Source: Synergistaceae bacterium
GTDB lineage: Bacteria > Synergistota > Synergistia > Synergistales > Aminobacteriaceae
Length of the DNA: 10,498 bases
NCBI GenBank assembly: GCA_012523155.1
Contig: JAAYJB010000070.1
Coordinates: forward strand, 1 to 10,498
Direction: 5' to 3'
This document shows positions 163 through 9,582 of this stretch, piece by piece. Position numbers and translations under genes: made by a program. The first letter of the stretch is position 1, and the number at the start of each line of letters is the position of its first letter. The notes beneath the pieces are model-generated. The model saw nothing but the letters and a program-made list of their open reading frames with translations. It did not search any database and had not been told where the DNA came from.

Positions 163-2199
163 CTACGGCACAGTTATTTCAAAAATTTCGCCGGGATTCC
201 CTGCGAGGAACAGAAGCGCCCCTCCAGGCACGTTAATGTCTCCGCTGTCGGTAATGCTGTCGTATAATGGTTCCGGCTCCTCCTCGCCGCTGAACACAAT
301 GACCCTGCCCCCGACGGGTTTTTCAAAGGACAGCGTACATTCATCCGGAACTGCAGCCCATTCATTGTCACCTTCGGGGGCTATTGCTACCGTATTTTTC
401 CCCGGGGCAAGCGGAGTAAGGATTTCTTTTCCTGAATAGATGAACTGCATGGCCTTTGCCTGAACATTCCCGTTTTTCATGAAGAGCCGAAATTCACCTT
501 GATCCCGGAATCCTGTCGCTGCAATCGCTGCAAAGTCCGGCGTCTCAATTTTGTTCACTCCGAAAAATTGCACATACCCCGGGAGTTCCCTGTAGAGTGC
601 CGACCGCATCAAAAATACTTCCGAAAGCTGGTCGAAGGCAGACATATTGCGGATCAGCCATAATTTTCCGTCCACATTGACGGACATGCTTCCCGGGTCC
701 TCAACTGGCTCGATCTTTTGAAACACAGGTATGTCCGCTTCGAAACGGGGAATTTTTTCCACCACGAGAAATGTGCCGGAATCGCCGGTAATGAAGTAAT
801 AGGAATTTTTCTTCTCTCGATCGTGGAAAGAACCTCCCGTGTAGACCAGTGAAAGGAGGGGTTTTTCTTCTGCCGGATGTGCTTCCATGCCTTCCTCCGG
901 ACCCTCGGGGAGGGGATGAATATGTAACTCATGTTTCCCTGTATCGAAGGAGAAACGGAATGCTTTTTCCCCGTTCACGTAATAGCCTGCCTTCTGCAGC
1001 AATTCTTCCGGAACGGGCTGCGGCTCCCCTGATTTTTTTACAGGATCCGAAGCCGGCCGGGGAAGCCCTTTATCCTTTAAAAGAGCGTCCATAATGCGGT
1101 AGGTCGCCTCATCTGCGGAAACGTGGCCCGAAAAGATCGCCGCCACCGCCAGACGCTCCCCGGGAAGGATCTGGAGGTTAGTCGAATAGCACATAGTCCC
1201 TCCGCTTTTTCCCACAACCTGGTACCCGTTTGTCCTGTATGCCGGAAGAAGTGCATAATCCCATCCGAACGCTTCAAGAATAGCGTCTCCTTTCAGCAAT
1301 GCGGAAAAGGGTGTGGGCTGCTGTTTCATGATTTCAGCCAGCGAAGGCCCTGAAAGGATGTTTCTGCCCCCGGGGGTGAAGCTGTCACCGAAGCGGCACA
1401 GATCTTCAGGAGTGGATGACAGTCCCCCAGCCCCGAGCACCGTCACAACTTCGGGTGGGTATATTTTCCCTTCATTATCGTAGAATTCGGCTATTTTCCC
1501 CCCGGCAACGCCGATACTCTCCCCGGAATCGTTCATGTCCAGGGGCTTGAATATCCGCTCTGCCACAAAGTCAGCGAACTTTTTGCCGGAGAGACGCTCG
1601 ATGACCATCTCGGCCAGGGTAAAACCGTCGTTGCAGTAAATGCTCATTTCTCCGGGAGCGTGTTTGAGCCTGGCCTCACTTAAGGTTTCAAGAAGAAGGG
1701 CCTGGTGATCGCCGTCTGCCCTGTAGCCGAAACTGAACGTGGACCCGGGCAGGCCGGAGGAATGGTTGAAGAGCATGCGCACCGTTATGTCGCGATACCT
1801 GGGATCCTTCATGGTGAACTCGGGAATGTGCTTCACAACAGGATCATCTATCCGGAGTTTCCCCTCATCAGCGAGCAGCAGAACTCCAACCGCCGCAAAC
1901 ATTTTGCTCGTGGAGCCGATATTGAACCTCGTATCCGTGCCCACTGGAGTGTTTGATGCTCTTTCAGCCGGTCCGAAGCCCTCCGAATAGACAATTTTCC
2001 CTCCGTCCATTACCGCCACCGATGCGGCGTTGCCTCCGCCTGAGATTATCGTCTTCCATATAAACTCTCTCGCGGTTTTCACCGTATCCGGATATTTTGG
2101 CCCATCGCAAGTACCCCGGCTGACCGTGGAGAAAACAAATACAATGACCAAAAGACAAAAAATACACCAGCGCATATACAACGATTTCCTGCTTCCCAT
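163..2199 (-). CDS. Exported serine hydrolase of the class C beta-lactamase/DD-peptidase family with a long C-terminal extension
   Basis: 678 residues. A basic start (MGSRKS) and a hydrophobic stretch at about 11-27 indicate Sec export, either cleaved or kept as an N-terminal anchor. No lipobox is seen. The catalytic domain (about 40-375) has all three active-site motifs of the penicillin-binding-like serine hydrolases: S96-T-S-K99, Y188-C-N190 and K331-S-G333. It probably acts on a peptide, D-amino-acid or ester bond outside the cytoplasm. True beta-lactamase activity is not implied, as most members of this family with extensions are peptidases or esterases. Residues from about 390 to 678 are beta-rich and I do not recognise them. 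The start was set at 2199 because GGGGG (2209-2213) lies 9 bases upstream. An in-frame ATG at 2238 has GGAG only 3 bases away and adds 13 residues before the signal sequence. The gene is monocistronic, divergent from the GTPase-like gene and convergent with the TOBE gene. Confidence 0.87.
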   Translation of the reverse strand: MGSRKSLYMRWCIFCLLVIVFVFSTVSRGTCDGPKYPDTVKTAREFIWKTIISGGGNAASVAVMDGGKIVYSEGFGPAERASNTPVGTDTRFNIGSTSKMFAAVGVLLLADEGKLRIDDPVVKHIPEFTMKDPRYRDITVRMLFNHSSGLPGSTFSFGYRADGDHQALLLETLSEARLKHAPGEMSIYCNDGFTLAEMVIERLSGKKFADFVAERIFKPLDMNDSGESIGVAGGKIAEFYDNEGKIYPPEVVTVLGAGGLSSTPEDLCRFGDSFTPGGRNILSGPSLAEIMKQQPTPFSALLKGDAILEAFGWDYALLPAYRTNGYQVVGKSGGTMCYSTNLQILPGERLAVAAIFSGHVSADEATYRIMDALLKDKGLPRPASDPVKKSGEPQPVPEELLQKAGYYVNGEKAFRFSFDTGKHELHIHPLPEGPEEGMEAHPAEEKPLLSLVYTGGSFHDREKKNSYYFITGDSGTFLVVEKIPRFEADIPVFQKIEPVEDPGSMSVNVDGKLWLIRNMSAFDQLSEVFLMRSALYRELPGYVQFFGVNKIETPDFAAIAATGFRDQGEFRLFMKNGNVQAKAMQFIYSGKEILTPLAPGKNTVAIAPEGDNEWAAVPDECTLSFEKPVGGRVIVFSGEEEPEPLYDSITDSGDINVPGGALLFLAGNPGEIFEITVP

Positions 2200-2208
2200 T
2201 TTGCTGTA

Positions 2209-2213
2209 CCCCC
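2209..2213 (-). promoter_or_regulatory. Ribosome binding site fixing the serine hydrolase start
   Basis: On the minus strand GGGGG lies 9 bases before the ATG at 2197-2199. The alternative upstream ATG at 2236-2238 has GGAG at only 3 bases, so the shorter protein, which also puts the signal sequence near its N-terminus, is preferred. Confidence 0.55.
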
Positions 2214-2289
2214 ATTCCGCACATAATCTTAGGGACATTCGCTCCGAAGAAAAAAACGGAAAAAAAGAGCCACCCCTTTATTATTGGCA

Positions 2290-2318: not shown

Positions 2319-2489
2319 CGTGCAGTTCAATGAGCATTCTGAGGCATTTATACAAAAACTGCCGTATCACTGAATGATTTCTGAGATCATAAAAATTGTG
2401 GTATTCTTTTCAGATGGAAAGAGTATCATCTATGGTGAAAGGCTCTTTATTTCTTTCTTCTAAATATCATTTTCACGGAGGAGACCAGT

Positions 2490-5462
2490 ATGGAAAAACA
2501 AAAGTACCGGATTGCTGTAATGGGTGCATACGGTGTCGGAAAAACAACCTTTCTGGGATCATACTTCAATCTTGTGATCAACAAGGGAGAAGGAGTTCCC
2601 GTTTCATTGAACACACCTGAGATGGTGGACCAGGTCGCCAGGATCACGGGCACCCTCTTCAAGAAACAGGTGCCGGTGACGGAAAAGGCAATGATCGAAA
2701 ATATGGCCTATTCGATAGAAACCCTCGGCATGGACGTGGAATTCGTCGATGTCGCGTCAAGCGAAAACTTCAAGACTCTTCCCGACCTGAAGTCGGTCAA
2801 CGGCATTCTTTTCTTTCTTTCAGCTGAAGACCTCGTCAAAAATCCCGTAAAAGTAAAAAAGGACAACGAAGTCTTTCAGGAAGCAATAGACTACATCCTT
2901 CAGAACAGTGATTCGAAATGGTACGATTTTCAGAAGTTTCCCCTGTACTGCATTCTTACCAAGTGTGATGCGGTTCCCCAGGTTACTGAAGATGAACTTG
3001 CCGTAAAAACGGCAGATTTTCTGAATGCCGCCAAGGGCGCCTCGGATCTTGCCAGTGAAGAGGATGTCAAGCCTTTTCTTTTTGAAGCAGGAAAAAACCT
3101 CCGCTGCTTCAGGACTGTCTCACTCGGAAAATGGACCGATACGAAGGCGCTCCCGAAGAAGTATGAACCGGAAAATGTCCTGGAACCAATGGAAGATCTT
3201 TATGCGGCCATGGCACGTGTCCCACGGGCAAGAAAAAGGGTGAAACGCGCCGCCTGGGCTGTCGGGGGGCTTCTTATTCTCGCTGTCGGCAGCTCATGGG
3301 GCCTTGACATATACCAGTGGGAAAAAACAAAGGAAGAAGCGAGGAAGCTCGCCTCGGAAGCCAGGTATGAAGATGCTATCAACCATGTAAATCAAGTGGC
3401 GGACAGGAATGACAAGAACGAACTGATATCGGAGATTTACCGGCAGTACGAAAAGGCGAAGTTCGACGGGATCCTGCCGGTCATAAAGGACCTGGACGTA
3501 AATGTCCCACCCGAGGCGCCTCTGGAAGAGTTCCTCGAAGCCTCTAAAAAAGTGGATGAATACCTGAAAAACAACTCATTCAAGCAAGCCAGTGCCGCTA
3601 ATTATGAAAAGGTGAACTCCCTTGCATGGTATTTCGAGGCCGGGAAGAAACTCCTTTCCACGACCCCGGAAGAGACTGGACATGCGGCGGATGCGCTGAA
3701 CAAATGGCTTGAAACCCTGCCGCAGTTGCCTGAACAGTGGAAGGATGTTGCATCGAAGAAAACAAAAGAGATGCTCGAAGCGTGGTTCGATTCTGTCGGC
3801 CCCGAAGCGGAAATTGAAGAAGTAGAGCAGTCCGTTGCCCGTGCCGCAGCTTTTGCCGATCATCCGAACCTGTCAGATGACCTCAAAGCCCTTCTTTCGG
3901 AGAAGCAGGAGTCCTGGAAGAAAGCCATATCCTCAAAATGGATATCAGCAGGAGAAAAAGTGATCGCTGAAGCCTCCGCTCTTTCTCCTGAAGAAGGCCT
4001 GAAAAAACTTTTCGCTTTTTCCGCGGAAAAGGACATTCCGGAGAATATCCTGCAGATGGCTGCAGAAGCGGTGAAATCGGAGTACGCACGGCTTGCGGAT
4101 ACGTACGTAGCTGACAGGGACGCGGGGAAAGACAGGCTCTCGGCGTTGATGGCGGAATTTCCGGAGATGCCCGAAGAACAGAAGCAGAAACTCTTCGCCC
4201 GCATAAAGGAAATTGTTCAGGAGACGGTCGCTTCCATTTCAGATAAAATAACGGCGGCTGACAGCCTTGAAACCCTTGAAAAACACCTTCCCGACCTGGA
4301 ACTTTCATGGGAAGAAGTGCCTGACGGAAAAGCCGGGATCACGAAAAGCTTTGCCGCCTCGCTCACAAGACTCTGGGAAACGGAATCTCAAAAGATCCAT
4401 AAAGAAGCCTCTGCACTGGCATCAAAAAATGAGTTTACGTCGGCGATGGCAATGATCGCTCCTTCATTCAGGGAATTGGCTGCCAGGGTCAGCGATATCG
4501 CGACAAAGGCCGGAATTCCGATGGATCAGACTGACGTGTCGGCCCTTGTGAAGAACGCCGCTCATGAGGTAGTTTCAGCCCTTTCGAAGGAGATCGAAGG
4601 CAGTGAAAGCCTGGAAGCTCTTGCTTCCCATCTTCCTGTTCTTGATCTTTCATGGGAAGAAGTCGCCGAAGGGAAGGCCGGAATTACGAAAAGCTTTGCC
4701 TCCGCCCTTAACAGGCTTTTGCAGGCAGAGGGAGAAAAAATTAAAAAAGAGATCGCGGAACTGGCGGTGAAAAACGAGTTTTCAGCTGCCAGGGACACGA
4801 TAAGCACCGCCTTCGAAAAACTGTTCGCCGACACAGGGGAACTGACAATGAAATCCGGAACAGCCGATGTCGAAGCCGTGATCGCCAAAATGAAGGATCG
4901 GGAACTTCAAAACCTGCAAAACGTCCATTATGAGCAGTGCAGGAAAGATTTTGAGGCCGTCAGGGATACGAAAGACCCTGAAGCTATCGCCTCTGTAATA
5001 TCCAGGCTCAGGGATTTTGCCACTCTCTGGCCTTCCTCGGCAAAAAGCAAAGAAACTGAACAGGTTGCCGTATACATGGAAACAGTAAAGAACGGTGTAA
5101 AAGCAGAGCTTATGATCATCGGAGGGGATTTTTCAGCGGAAGATTCGTTCATGGACTCCCCTGATATGAAAATCCAGCTGAAAAAGGGGAACACCCTGCT
5201 GCTGGAAACGAAAACAGTTGATAACAACGCAAGGCCTTCATTCAATGAAAAATACCCATTCACCTGGGATCTGCAGACCGGGTTTTCATTTGTCGGAATC
5301 GAAACAGCCGGCATGTTCGGTTCCGATGAAGAAGTATTCAAAGTATCTGTAGATGCCGGAGGCCTCTTCGGTTACGAAAAACTGAACGGGACTTTGAAGG
5401 ACAGGGGCAACTCTATTGCAGTGAAACTCGACATTACAGTTCCGGAGTGCCCGTGGAAGTGA
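2490..5462 (+). CDS. GTPase-like P-loop protein with one membrane span, helical repeats and a C2-like C-terminal domain
   Basis: 990 residues; no named family recognised. Residues 6-240 read as a small-GTPase fold. Walker A is G12-AYGVG-K18-T19, and a T157-K-C-D160 sequence fits the guanine-specifying G4 motif. D87-V-A-S90 stands where DxxG is expected, so the G3 glycine is missing. A basic patch (RARKRVKR, 246-253) precedes one hydrophobic span (about 254-272), predicting the GTPase domain in the cytoplasm and the rest outside. Residues 275-868 are strongly helical and charged, with a 115-residue unit repeated in tandem at 576-690 and 691-805. A motif like EK...EA..LA recurs near 278, 489, 635 and 750. 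Residues 870-990 are beta-rich and C2-like. The layout suggests nucleotide-controlled signalling or scaffolding across the membrane; this is inference. The start has GGAGGAG 6 bases upstream. The gene stands alone, divergent from the serine hydrolase and convergent with garR. Confidence 0.88.
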   Translation: MEKQKYRIAVMGAYGVGKTTFLGSYFNLVINKGEGVPVSLNTPEMVDQVARITGTLFKKQVPVTEKAMIENMAYSIETLGMDVEFVDVASSENFKTLPDLKSVNGILFFLSAEDLVKNPVKVKKDNEVFQEAIDYILQNSDSKWYDFQKFPLYCILTKCDAVPQVTEDELAVKTADFLNAAKGASDLASEEDVKPFLFEAGKNLRCFRTVSLGKWTDTKALPKKYEPENVLEPMEDLYAAMARVPRARKRVKRAAWAVGGLLILAVGSSWGLDIYQWEKTKEEARKLASEARYEDAINHVNQVADRNDKNELISEIYRQYEKAKFDGILPVIKDLDVNVPPEAPLEEFLEASKKVDEYLKNNSFKQASAANYEKVNSLAWYFEAGKKLLSTTPEETGHAADALNKWLETLPQLPEQWKDVASKKTKEMLEAWFDSVGPEAEIEEVEQSVARAAAFADHPNLSDDLKALLSEKQESWKKAISSKWISAGEKVIAEASALSPEEGLKKLFAFSAEKDIPENILQMAAEAVKSEYARLADTYVADRDAGKDRLSALMAEFPEMPEEQKQKLFARIKEIVQETVASISDKITAADSLETLEKHLPDLELSWEEVPDGKAGITKSFAASLTRLWETESQKIHKEASALASKNEFTSAMAMIAPSFRELAARVSDIATKAGIPMDQTDVSALVKNAAHEVVSALSKEIEGSESLEALASHLPVLDLSWEEVAEGKAGITKSFASALNRLLQAEGEKIKKEIAELAVKNEFSAARDTISTAFEKLFADTGELTMKSGTADVEAVIAKMKDRELQNLQNVHYEQCRKDFEAVRDTKDPEAIASVISRLRDFATLWPSSAKSKETEQVAVYMETVKNGVKAELMIIGGDFSAEDSFMDSPDMKIQLKKGNTLLLETKTVDNNARPSFNEKYPFTWDLQTGFSFVGIETAGMFGSDEEVFKVSVDAGGLFGYEKLNGTLKDRGNSIAVKLDITVPECPWK
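4215..4904 (+). repeat. Intragenic tandem duplication, two 345-base units (115 residues each)
   Basis: Units 4215-4559 and 4560-4904 align in register with no shift in phase. The best conserved block begins at 4302 and again at 4647, exactly 345 bases apart. At protein level the shared core is LSWEEV..GKAGITKSFA, followed by EF, A and I positions in a predicted helix. The DNA has diverged mainly at third positions while the protein core is kept, which implies an old duplication under protein-level selection. Unit edges are approximate. Confidence 0.9.
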
Positions 5463-6528: not shown

Positions 6529-7473
6529 CTAATCCGCCGGATCCCATGTTTCTCCGCACCTGTCCAGCAGTTCCTGCCATTCGAATTCGATATCCGCCTG
6601 CGCCTGCTCAAGCAGCGCTTTTGATGTATCCCCCTTGAAGAGATGTCGGTAACGTGCCTGGGGTTTCAAAAATTCCTCTATTGGCACCCGTTTCTTTGGC
6701 TTGTAGGTTATCTTCCATTTGCCGTTTTCCACTTCGTACACCGGCCAAAAACGCGTGTCGGCTGCCAGTCTGCAGATCTCGTGCTGCAGGGCCGGGTCAA
6801 TTCCCCAGAAAAGGACACAGGGGACGAGGATATTCACGAAAGCCGGTCCGGGGGTTTCCACTGCCTTCTTCACCTTCTCCGCTACGTCCGTGGCGTTGAA
6901 AAGTGTTGTCTGGGCAACATAGGGGATATGGTGGGCCTCGACGATGGCCGTGAGGTCTTTTGCCCTCTGAAGTTTCCCGGGGATCACGGTTCCCGCAGGG
7001 GAAGTGGTCGCGTTTGCCCTCCTGGGCGTCGCGCTGCTCCTCTGGGCGCCGGTATTCATATACCCCTGGTTGTTGTAGCAGATATAGGTAAAATCATGGC
7101 CCCGCTCGAGCGCTCCTGAAAGGGACTGAAGACCGATGTCATATGTTCCTCCGTCGCCGCCGAAGGTGACGAACTTGATATCCTTGTCGATCTTTCCGCG
7201 CTTCTTCAAGGCAATGTAAGCTGCTTCCACTCCTGAAACACCAGCTCCCGCGTTCTCGAAGGCGGTATGGATCCACGGCACCCTCCATGCGCTGAAGGGA
7301 TACACCGTAGTGGAAACTTCGAGGCACCCTGTCGCGTTCACCACAACAAGAGGGGAGTCGATTCCCATGAGTCCCTGGTGAACTGCCGTCGGCGCGCCGC
7401 ATCCAGGGCAGAGCCTGTGCCCGCCGCTCAGGGGGCTGATCTTTTCAGTATAATCTTTCAGTCTTATGGCCAT
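6529..7473 (-). CDS. porB: Pyruvate/2-ketoisovalerate:ferredoxin oxidoreductase, beta subunit
   Basis: 314 residues, normal for PorB/VorB. This subunit binds thiamine pyrophosphate and a [4Fe-4S] cluster and is the catalytic partner of PorA. The TPP motif runs from G106-D-G108 to N134-N135 (GDGGTYDIGLQ ... CYNNQGYMNTG). Four cysteines fit the cluster: C22 and C25 in CPGCG, C50 in ATGCLE and C219 in LVPCVLF. The start is set at the ATG of 7471-7473. It is preceded 6 bases upstream by AGGGGGTG (7480-7487), which matches the anti-Shine-Dalgarno sequence with one G-U pair. A GTG at 7480-7482 would extend the frame by three codons but is itself part of that binding site. The gap to porA is 12 bases. 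Sequence alone does not separate pyruvate from branched-chain specificity. Confidence 0.93.
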   Translation of the reverse strand: MAIRLKDYTEKISPLSGGHRLCPGCGAPTAVHQGLMGIDSPLVVVNATGCLEVSTTVYPFSAWRVPWIHTAFENAGAGVSGVEAAYIALKKRGKIDKDIKFVTFGGDGGTYDIGLQSLSGALERGHDFTYICYNNQGYMNTGAQRSSATPRRANATTSPAGTVIPGKLQRAKDLTAIVEAHHIPYVAQTTLFNATDVAEKVKKAVETPGPAFVNILVPCVLFWGIDPALQHEICRLAADTRFWPVYEVENGKWKITYKPKKRVPIEEFLKPQARYRHLFKGDTSKALLEQAQADIEFEWQELLDRCGETWDPAD

Positions 7474-7479
7474 TGAGTA

Positions 7480-7487
7480 CACCCCCT
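7480..7487 (-). promoter_or_regulatory. porB ribosome binding site overlapping the porA stop codon
   Basis: The minus strand reads TAGGGGGTG: the porA stop TAG (7486-7488) supplies the first bases of an extended Shine-Dalgarno element. It lies 6 bases before the porB ATG at 7473. This couples the end of porA to porB initiation and decides the porB start. Confidence 0.75.
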
Positions 7488-8652
7488 ATTCCAGAAGGCC
7501 GATGTAGCGTTCTTCGGCCCTGATATTTCCCTTTTGAAGATCGGCGAAGATTTCCATTGCGTGCTGCGGGAAAAAGTCCCGCCCGCCAAGCCCATAGACG
7601 CAGGACTGCAGGGGAACGTGCGCTCCGGCATCGTACAGTGCGCTCTTTACCTCTGCGGAAAGGGGCGCAGTCCCGCCTATGCTCAGCGCACGGTCAAGAA
7701 CGGCGACGGCTTTTGCTTTCCCGAGGACTTCAGCGACATCTGCCGCCGGGAAGGGACGGAACATGCGGATTCTCAGGCAGCCTGCTTTTACGCCTTTTTC
7801 ACGCAGCTCGTCCACGACGTCCTTCACTACACCTGAAGCCGATGACATAACGACCACGATAAAATCGGCATCGTCTGTACGGTATTTGTCGAGCTTCGGG
7901 TAAAACCGGCCGGAAACCGATTCGTAATCCCTGGCAACCGAATCATAATGCTTCAGCACGTTCCTGTGTGCCTCGACTTGCTGCCGCTTGATCTCGAAAT
8001 AATACTCGGACATGGCGAAGGACCCGTACGTGACTGGGTTGTCCACGTCAAGAAGCGGAAGGTCCGCGTCACGTTCGCCGACAAATGATTTCACTGTTTC
8101 ATCGTCGAGCATGGATACCGCCTCAAAGCTGTGGCTCGTTATGAAACCGTCCTGACAGACGAAAACAGGGGACAGGATATCCTTGTGTTCCGCAAGGCGA
8201 ACAGCCAGTATTGCGGAATCGTATGCCTCCTGTGCGTCCTCGCAGTACAGGTGGACCCATCCGGCATCCCGTTCTCCCATGCTGTCGCTGTGGTCGCAGT
8301 GGATATTGATTGGAGCCCCAAGGCTCCTGTTCACCAGGCCGAACACAATGGGATTCCGGAAGAACGCCGCGATAGGGAATATCTCGTGCATGAGCGCCAC
8401 GCCGTTTGCGCTCGACGCCGTCATCACCCGTGCTCCAGCCGCAGCTGCGGTAACGCATGCGGTTATGGCGGAATGTTCGCTTTCAACCGTTACAAAATTT
8501 GTGTCCACTTTCCCGTTTGCTACGAATTCTGCAAACTTCATGGGGATATCTGTTGACGGGGTTATGGGGTAGGCGGCAACGACATCGGGATTGATCTGCC
8601 TCATCGCCTCGGCAAACGCCCAGTTTCCGGAAATAATTTCTCTGCGGGGCAT
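7486..8652 (-). CDS. porA: Pyruvate/2-ketoisovalerate:ferredoxin oxidoreductase, alpha subunit
   Basis: 388 residues, the usual size. PorA carries the pyrimidine-binding half of the TPP site and the transketolase-C-like domain. Numbering from the chosen start, the family's YPITPST is at 28-34 and VESEHSA at 56-62, with a conserved acidic residue near the cofactor. A second domain begins near 263 (DFIVVVMSSA) and includes RMFRPFP (296-302), DRALS.GG..PL and the terminal YGLGGRD. The start at 8652 was chosen because AAGGAGG (8662-8668) lies 9 bases upstream. An ATG at 8661 would touch the binding site with no spacer. It begins 16 bases after porD and is followed by porB after 12 bases. No frameshift or missing motif is seen. 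Confidence 0.93.
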   Translation of the reverse strand: MPRREIISGNWAFAEAMRQINPDVVAAYPITPSTDIPMKFAEFVANGKVDTNFVTVESEHSAITACVTAAAAGARVMTASSANGVALMHEIFPIAAFFRNPIVFGLVNRSLGAPINIHCDHSDSMGERDAGWVHLYCEDAQEAYDSAILAVRLAEHKDILSPVFVCQDGFITSHSFEAVSMLDDETVKSFVGERDADLPLLDVDNPVTYGSFAMSEYYFEIKRQQVEAHRNVLKHYDSVARDYESVSGRFYPKLDKYRTDDADFIVVVMSSASGVVKDVVDELREKGVKAGCLRIRMFRPFPAADVAEVLGKAKAVAVLDRALSIGGTAPLSAEVKSALYDAGAHVPLQSCVYGLGGRDFFPQHAMEIFADLQKGNIRAEERYIGLLE

Positions 8653-8661
8653 AGTCTGCAT

Positions 8662-8668
8662 CCTCCTT
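8662..8668 (-). promoter_or_regulatory. porA ribosome binding site, decides the start
   Basis: The minus strand reads AAGGAGG directly before ATGCAGACTATG. The first ATG (8659-8661) has no spacer at all. The second, in-frame ATG (8650-8652) has the normal 9-base spacing and is the likely start. Confidence 0.75.
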
Positions 8669-9004
8669 CTACCGGCTGCCCGAGTCTGACGGGAAGTCAG
8701 CTTCCGGCTTCATCTCGATGGCATCCTTGGGGCAGACGTGAGCGCAGATACCGCACCCCTTACAGAAGAAGAGATCGATACCTGACACCTTTCCGTTTTC
8801 ATCCGTAAGTATCGCCCTGTCCGGGCACTGGTTCCAGCAGAGAAGACAGGAAATACATTTCTCGCTGTCCCATACAGGACGAATGCTCCGCCACTGGCCT
8901 GTCTCCACAGCTTCTGCAGAGGCGCCGAAGGCAACCCCCGCCATTGGAACATCCTGCCACTTTTTCGGCCGGGCCATCTCGGCACTGTTCATTTCCTTCT
9001 TCAT
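8669..9004 (-). CDS. porD: Pyruvate/2-ketoisovalerate:ferredoxin oxidoreductase, delta (2[4Fe-4S] ferredoxin) subunit
   Basis: 111 residues. It passes electrons from the beta-subunit cluster to soluble ferredoxin. Two complete cluster motifs are visible: C50-x2-C53-x2-C56-x3-C60-P and C81-x2-C84-x2-C87-x3-C91-P, each followed by a D.A-type turn. The roughly 45-residue lead-in containing TGQWRS.RPVWD before the first cysteine is the standard PorD/VorD N-terminus and separates it from a free ferredoxin. The ATG shares bases with the porG stop (ATGA, 4-base overlap), and GAGGAGGTG at 9013-9021 is 8 bases upstream inside porG, so translation should be coupled to porG. A second ATG four codons in is possible but less well placed. 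Confidence 0.95.
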   Translation of the reverse strand: MKKEMNSAEMARPKKWQDVPMAGVAFGASAEAVETGQWRSIRPVWDSEKCISCLLCWNQCPDRAILTDENGKVSGIDLFFCKGCGICAHVCPKDAIEMKPEADFPSDSGSR

Positions 9005-9582
9005 CCGATCAGCACCTCCTCGTAGCCCCGCTTGATTGCCCGCTTGTTTGCCTCGAGTATCTTTTCCGGAAGGTTTTTCATCTTGCGGGAAAAATGTTCC
9101 ACGAACGACTCGATGGGAACCTCGCTGAATACATGGGCAAACGTTCCGAGCATAGGAGCGTTCGGCCTGTTCTGCCCAAATTCCTCCAGGGTTATTTTTG
9201 TCGCGTCAATGGTTATCACCCTGGCTCCCTGTGGAAGGCCGAGTTTGGATTTCACTGCCTCGGGTGATTCGGGCGTGTTGATGAGATACACCGTATTTTC
9301 GGTGCATCCCTCCGATGGACGAACCGCCTCAAGGAGCGTCGGATCGATAATGGCCACCACATCAGGGTTCTGAACACCGCACCTCTTGCGTATCGGACCA
9401 TCGGATACGCGGTTGAAGGCCTTCATCGGCGCGCCCTGTCTCTCGGCCCCATACTCCGGGAACGACTGCACAAACTTCCCTGCCTCGAACATTACTTCCG
9501 CCAGAACGGCGGAACCTGTCTTTGCCCCCTGTCCGCCCCGGCCATGCCACCGTATTTCAGTTGTTCGGGAAATGATGCTCAT
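9001..9582 (-). CDS. porG: Pyruvate/2-ketoisovalerate:ferredoxin oxidoreductase, gamma subunit
   Basis: 193 residues, normal for PorG/VorC. The gamma subunit is the domain associated with CoA-dependent steps and assembly of the four-subunit enzyme. Clear family motifs are IRWHGRGGQGA (10-20), FPEYGAERQGAP (41-52), a parallel-sheet core with NPDVVAIIDPTLL (72-84), and PNAPMLG (140-146). It is the first gene of the operon and overlaps porD by 4 bases. The only ordinary start codon in frame is the ATG at 9580-9582, because an in-frame TGA lies 9 bases upstream. Its purine-rich AAAGGAG (9583-9589) abuts the ATG with no spacer, which is unusual. Confidence 0.94.
   Translation of the reverse strand: MSIISRTTEIRWHGRGGQGAKTGSAVLAEVMFEAGKFVQSFPEYGAERQGAPMKAFNRVSDGPIRKRCGVQNPDVVAIIDPTLLEAVRPSEGCTENTVYLINTPESPEAVKSKLGLPQGARVITIDATKITLEEFGQNRPNAPMLGTFAHVFSEVPIESFVEHFSRKMKNLPEKILEANKRAIKRGYEEVLIG

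Follow-up and report, generated by a model that had tools for sequence, protein, structure and literature searches.

Among described systems, the closest to the gene reported here include the DO-GTPases (double GTPases; PF19993/PF19975) and components of the type VI secretion system (T6SS). As set out in the sections of the papers drawn on here, some DO-GTPases have transmembrane (TM) segments and extracellular domains and some are linked to HSP70 (Kaur et al. 2020, PMC7159879), DO-GTPases are linked to psp operons (PMC11237479), TssM has Walker and GTP-binding motifs of unknown function (PMC8508121), and TagF represses T6SS via Fha (PMC5995506). Here we describe a gene in a 10,498-nucleotide stretch of DNA from a Synergistaceae bacterium (the window; contig JAAYJB010000070.1, assembly GCA_012523155.1), whose product carries a Ras-like GTPase domain, one predicted membrane span, a long helical stalk and a C2 domain on a single chain. 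The domain families are known and their combination is new; none of the membrane double-GTPases with extracellular domains described in those sections of PMC7159879 has a helical stalk with a C2 tip. From the systems in these papers the family is set apart by its C2 tip, by its partner and by where it occurs.

Architecture and topology

The reading frame at 2490..5462 is a real gene with an architecture beyond chance, because it has full-length relatives, invariant motif residues and a span whose position is constant across alignment rows. P0003 and P0004 are 87-88% identical to the window protein across its full length, and P0005-P0007 share 34-35% identity with it. The features of the gene are as follows.

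2490..5462, + strand: whole gene, 990 amino acids (aa), in the order GTPase domain, TM span, helical stalk, C2 domain
2477..2483, + strand: Shine-Dalgarno-like GGAGGAG ahead of the ATG at 2490, read directly
2490..3236, + strand: Ras-like (TRAFAC) GTPase fold of DO-GTPase2 type, residues 1-249
2523..2546, + strand: Walker A / G1, residues 12-19, GAYGVGKT
2748..2759, + strand: degenerate G3, residues 87-90, DVAS
2958..2969, + strand: G4, residues 157-160, TKCD
3249..3305, + strand: predicted transmembrane span, residues 254-272, from hydrophobicity, with low predicted local distance difference test (pLDDT) values there
3306..5093, + strand: helical stalk, residues 273-868, from AlphaFold2; predicted extracytoplasmic, the membrane side following from the hydrophobic span
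4221..4550, + strand: copy 1 of a tandem duplication, residues 578-687, from direct alignment
4566..4883, + strand: copy 2 of the tandem duplication, residues 693-798, from direct alignment
5094..5444, + strand: C2 domain, residues 869-985

The AlphaFold2 model of the window protein, built on a 15-row alignment (mean pLDDT 77.3; predicted template-modelling score, pTM, 0.39), consists of an alpha/beta domain to about residue 249, helices at 273-868 and a beta domain at 870-982. Its pLDDT falls below 50 at the span (250-272) and in parts of the duplicated stretch (678-703, 715-740, 778-791). This model and the hydrophobicity profile back the initial annotation of the gene, made from sequence alone, which had described a GTPase-like domain, a single span, a long helical part and a beta tip; the positions that it gave for Walker A (12-19), TKCD (157-160) and the span (254-272) all hold. 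It had not noticed the degenerate G3, the duplication of 578-687 in 693-798, or that the beta domain is a C2 domain, and its placement of the C-terminal part outside the cytoplasm stands as a prediction from sequence.

The most hydrophobic 19-residue segment of the window protein is 254-272 (mean 1.59), with 7 lysines or arginines (K/R) in the preceding 15 residues; the span is preceded by RARKRVKR, and the N terminus is predicted to be inside. Across the alignment, the strongest hydrophobic segment sits just past the GTPase domain in 15/15 rows (mean 1.44 to 2.65), a second segment being nearly equal in L021 (1.96 vs 1.97), and the 15-residue flanks have an N-side excess of K/R in 13 rows, equal numbers in one and fewer in one. 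The hydrophobic segment and the N-side excess together predict an N-in, C-out topology. Alternatively, the protein could be wholly cytoplasmic or peripheral, with its C2 domain acting on the inner leaflet: known C2 domains are mostly cytoplasmic, and the window segment is moderately hydrophobic and poorly modelled. We consider this unlikely, however, given that the segment is the most hydrophobic in every row, reaching 2.65, that the charge bias recurs in 13 of the 15, and that the membrane partner of some relatives (see below) likewise has, by eye in the alignment, a hydrophobic segment past its N-domain.

Within the stalk, residues 578-687 and 693-798 form a tandem duplication with 52/106 aligned residues identical. 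Self-BLAST gave just the diagonal; direct alignment found the duplication, scoring 247 where 500 shuffles reached no more than 57, and it is strong in 3 of 15 rows (P0001, P0003, P0004). The best Pfam score for the full-length window protein, below cut-off, was to Anticodon_1 (residues 346-410, E 8e-5), a likeness also found in P0003 (E 7.4e-4), which we took as helical likeness.

The tip, residues 869-985, has a C2 fold, as do the eukaryotic proteins synaptotagmin, Munc13 and cPLA2. Unlike these, it belongs to a bacterial protein, is predicted to be periplasmic and shares one chain with a GTPase. The window copy does not reach the Pfam cut-off for C2 (PF00168; 14.1 bits vs 22), and 9 of 10 family members match that profile at E up to 1 (best 2.1e-7). 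Loop 3, to which the acidic-residue rule for calcium and phospholipid binding by C2 domains applies, reads DEDILMDD in Fretibacterium fastidiosum and is thus acidic there; in the window copy it is degenerate. A C2 survey of Synergistota genomes returned 0/183, with controls silent too, and is uninformative on frequency. The C2 fold is known for lipid binding; in the mechanism proposed below, the tip would touch a membrane surface or a protein in the periplasm.

GTPase domain, clades and membrane partner

The N-domain of the window protein has a TRAFAC/Ras-like GTPase fold and contains both Walker A and (T/N)KxD; residues G12, G17, K18, T19, T157 and D160 are invariant in 13/13 aligned rows, the window copy included. 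An ATPase identity was rejected on the grounds of TKxD and the Ras-like fold. By profile comparison the domain probably goes with Pfam DO-GTPase2: all 10 GTPase domains of the family match PF19993 at E up to 0.1, and the relatives P0005 (31.3 bits) and P0018 (41.2 bits) pass the curated cut-off of 27, against 15.8 bits (E 0.012) for the window copy. Among 59 genomes scanned, just 2 have a match over that cut-off, and the window genome (G000) has none. P0018 (L049:6445-9906) carries two DO-GTPase2-type domains in tandem, followed by the same TM span, stalk and C2 domain, where the window protein has a single GTPase domain. PADLOC matched the window protein to no known defence family. To call the protein unrecognised, as the initial description did, was partly wrong, given the DO-GTPase2 likeness of its N-domain and the NCBI name of one relative, 'TRAFAC clade GTPase domain-containing protein [Aminivibrio sp.]'.

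The family resembles DO-GTPase systems in its probable N-domain family, in the pairing of GTPases seen in one relative (two fused), in membrane association, where some of those systems likewise have extracellular domains after the TM segment, and in HSP70-linked variants. It differs in having no GAP1 by profile, in the helical stalk with a C2 tip, in that its named matches are all from Synergistota, and in the missing G3 glycine of the window copy.

A weak relationship to YcjX raises the possibility of a membrane-stress GTPase like that of the Psp response, in which stalk and C2 domain would sense envelope damage. YcjX was the best PDB sequence match to the N-terminal part of the full-length profile (E 0.098), YcjX-like DUF463 (PF04317) matched 2 of 10 domains (best E 0.012; the window copy not at E up to 0.1), and there is the psp linkage of DO-GTPases noted above. 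These E-values are weak, however, and YcjX is absent from the best 60 PDB matches of the GTPase domain alone, where Ras proteins and a septin rank first. No Psp gene exceeded its cut-off among the part of the neighbouring genes scanned with Pfam; in L026, a neighbour of 175 aa has a PspA match at E 0.02. The YcjX chain in the PDB, at 485 residues, has no room for stalk and tip, and no partner like YcjF was recognised here, no profile search for it having been made. We doubt this explanation.

With a profile of 13 relatives, the family was found in 12/185 Synergistota genomes and 4/62 genera, all within the window's family and including all 5 genomes listed for its genus. A scan of GTDB representative contigs with two peptide patterns only, which may miss distant relatives, turned up 8 loci, every one with Synergistaceae, Synergistales or Fretibacterium in its title, and the protein database yielded 6 proteins including the window's own (~8,000 candidates scored each time). 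In the tree, DxxGG is kept in 7/7 rows of clade B and in 0/9 rows of its sister clade A, to which the window belongs; G002 carries both clades in one genome. Clade B has DxPGG or DVEGG at G3, where the window copy has the degenerate DVAS, with no intact G3 / Walker B and 8 alignment columns deleted after G3, in the switch II region.

The two clades also differ in a membrane partner, encoded by the next gene after the GTPase in clade B. A profile of the partner N-domain matches 7/183 genomes, all 7 of which have the GTPase, the genes being adjacent; G045 encodes only a 52-residue piece of the partner, beside an interrupted GTPase gene. None of the 5 clade A rows with checkable genomes has the partner gene alongside, nor was it found in the window's genome (93.61% complete, 492 contigs). 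The direction of this clade difference appears to be loss in clade A rather than gain elsewhere. Since the window clade has neither the catalytic DxxG motif nor, where checkable, the partner alongside, the window copy probably binds GTP with little or no hydrolysis and probably serves as a scaffold that is either constitutive or under a different regulation. Its lack of the G3 glycine and of the partner might also mark the window copy as a decaying or non-functional relic. This is highly improbable given the open 990-aa frame, the intact Walker A and TKCD, and the same changed motif in full-length relatives 87-88% identical to it.

The modelled partner N-domain weakly resembles TagF and longin folds, TagF being its best fold match, and the cytoplasmic domain of the partner may be TagF/longin-like. 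Sequence profiles do not back an identity as TagF: TagF_N (PF09867) had no match in 5/5 partner members, and matched no partner locus in 6 genomes, where no control passed the cut-off either. A likeness to GAP1, judged by eye, was not backed by a profile; GAP1-N did not match the partner at E up to 10 in 5/5 members, HMMER filters dropping most weak matches, and PF20013 stayed below cut-off in 8/8 genomes. The partner profile gave 2374 PDB matches at E up to 10, of which the best 60 are antibody chains (best E 3.8e-5); these, and a similar match in a further search, were judged spurious. By eye, the partner relative P0029 (743 aa) has a second stretch resembling the partner N-terminal domain. 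In clade B, the partner probably regulates the GTPase.

Gene neighbourhoods

Divergent from the window gene lies the following.

163..2238, - strand: beta-lactamase-family serine hydrolase (PF00144), signal-like N terminus by eye

The GTPase gene had been described as standing alone beside this hydrolase. That is so in the window. Of the 5 genomes of the genus, G000, G001 and G002 have the hydrolase next to the GTPase, whereas G003 and G004 do not. In clade B the gene belongs instead to a small cluster that also encodes membrane proteins and proteins that look exported. After the GTPase, the window has a hydroxyisobutyrate-dehydrogenase-like gene and then, at 6529-9582 (- strand), four clustered genes for a 2-oxoacid:ferredoxin oxidoreductase, whose products are TPP-binding, POR_N, ferredoxin and POR gamma-type subunits; no GAP1 gene is among its neighbours. 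Promoter-like sites number 1 against 2.4 (sd 1.5) in shuffles and terminator-like sites 8 against 5.1 (sd 2.1), and Rfam gave 0 matches above the gathering score.

In G003 and G004 the GTPase comes after a YbjQ-type gene and the gene of a ~690-aa protein, which by eye is exported and has a C-terminal anchor. This P0016-type exported-looking family occurs in 5/5 genus members, near the GTPase in 4. In the window genome, L040:2536-4611 and L041:5939-8014 (contigs C138 and C382) are 94% identical copies of the 690-aa protein; their gene order is alike and ~6 kb of the contigs is 85% identical in DNA, through duplication or mixed strains in the assembly.

A third clade B protein, membrane-bound or exported, is related in L025, L026, L049 and L086, and exported-looking ~700-aa proteins occur in L022 and L026, with a counterpart split in two in L025. 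The protein at L049:12213-12737, downstream of the cluster there, has short glycine-rich, helical-looking repeats and runs off the contig end. The loci L020:11590-18833 and L022:379-3219 adjoin phage-defence genes, namely BrxF, BrxC and PglX in G003 and, in G002, a SNF2-type helicase whose best match is DrmD. In G023 (L044:8365-21099), GTPase and partner are flanked by two HSP70-type proteins that share 56% identity. The HSP70 with which the cluster continues also has Sel1 repeats, with a TM segment between the two parts by eye; after it come a HerA-like ATPase (DUF87), a non-specific nuclease (PF13930) and a YezG-like immunity protein (PF04634).

The nuclease-immunity pair and the HerA-like ATPase in one cluster, together with TagF as the partner's best fold match, could fit an unrecognised apparatus for secretion or injection in which the window protein would be a membrane component resembling TssM/IcmF and the TagF-like partner would repress it. 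TssM, in which a TM hairpin comes first, is laid out as a GTPase-like domain, TM segment, periplasmic helical part and beta C-terminal domain, an order similar to that of the window protein. The likeness is as loose as first described: IcmF-related_N was the one IcmF match of the window protein (15.2 bits vs a cut-off of 25; E 0.014-0.015), with no IcmF C-terminal Pfam match, and it occurs in 2/10 domains against 10/10 for DO-GTPase2, to which the GTPase is nearer. The window protein has one span in place of a hairpin and ends in a C2 tip, the partner sequence does not match TagF_N, and the sheath gene TssC/VipB (PF05943) is missing from 12/12 genomes, with a positive E. coli control. TssM was not among the matches listed for the main model, which excludes nothing. 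TssM membership was rejected on the Pfam results and the absence of TssC, and we regard an apparatus of this kind as improbable.

A predicted trans-envelope switch

From the computed fold assignments, domain order, gene order and motif difference, we infer a trans-envelope GTP switch or tether of the double-GTPase type with a C2 contact tip, a reading to which we give about an even chance. The protein would be a single-pass inner-membrane protein with a Ras-like, DO-GTPase2-kind domain in the cytoplasm, coupled through one helix to a ~600-residue helical periplasmic stalk ending in the C2 domain. The nucleotide state inside would set stalk conformation or clustering, the C2 tip would contact a membrane surface or a protein in the periplasm, and in clade B the membrane partner from the next gene would regulate the GTPase; a role in stress or conflict may follow. 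The moderate hydrophobicity (1.59) and poor modelling of the window segment speak for the cytoplasmic alternative above. A simple story is complicated by the two P0016-type proteins of the window genome, which lie on other contigs, where a link to the GTPase is unproven.

Such a trans-envelope switch is not described in the literature searched: by title or abstract, no paper on the family stood among the matches listed for GTPases with a C2 domain and the periplasm, or among those listed for Synergistetes in connection with TRAFAC, conflict systems or C2 domains, and nothing was found that pairs two of TRAFAC, double GTPase and IcmF.

More tentatively, a TagF/longin-type regulator may tune the Ras-like GTPase and so control periplasmic C2 membrane contact, the window clade being GTP-locked with its regulator shed. 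If true, this TagF/longin-tuned switch would form a bridge between double-GTPase conflict systems and the TssM/TagF pair of the T6SS. The two clades, one with motif and partner and the other without the motif and, where checked, with no partner alongside, occur together in G002 and offer a natural comparison for the partner as regulator; if that role were confirmed, double-GTPase systems would be tied to the TssM/TagF arrangement.
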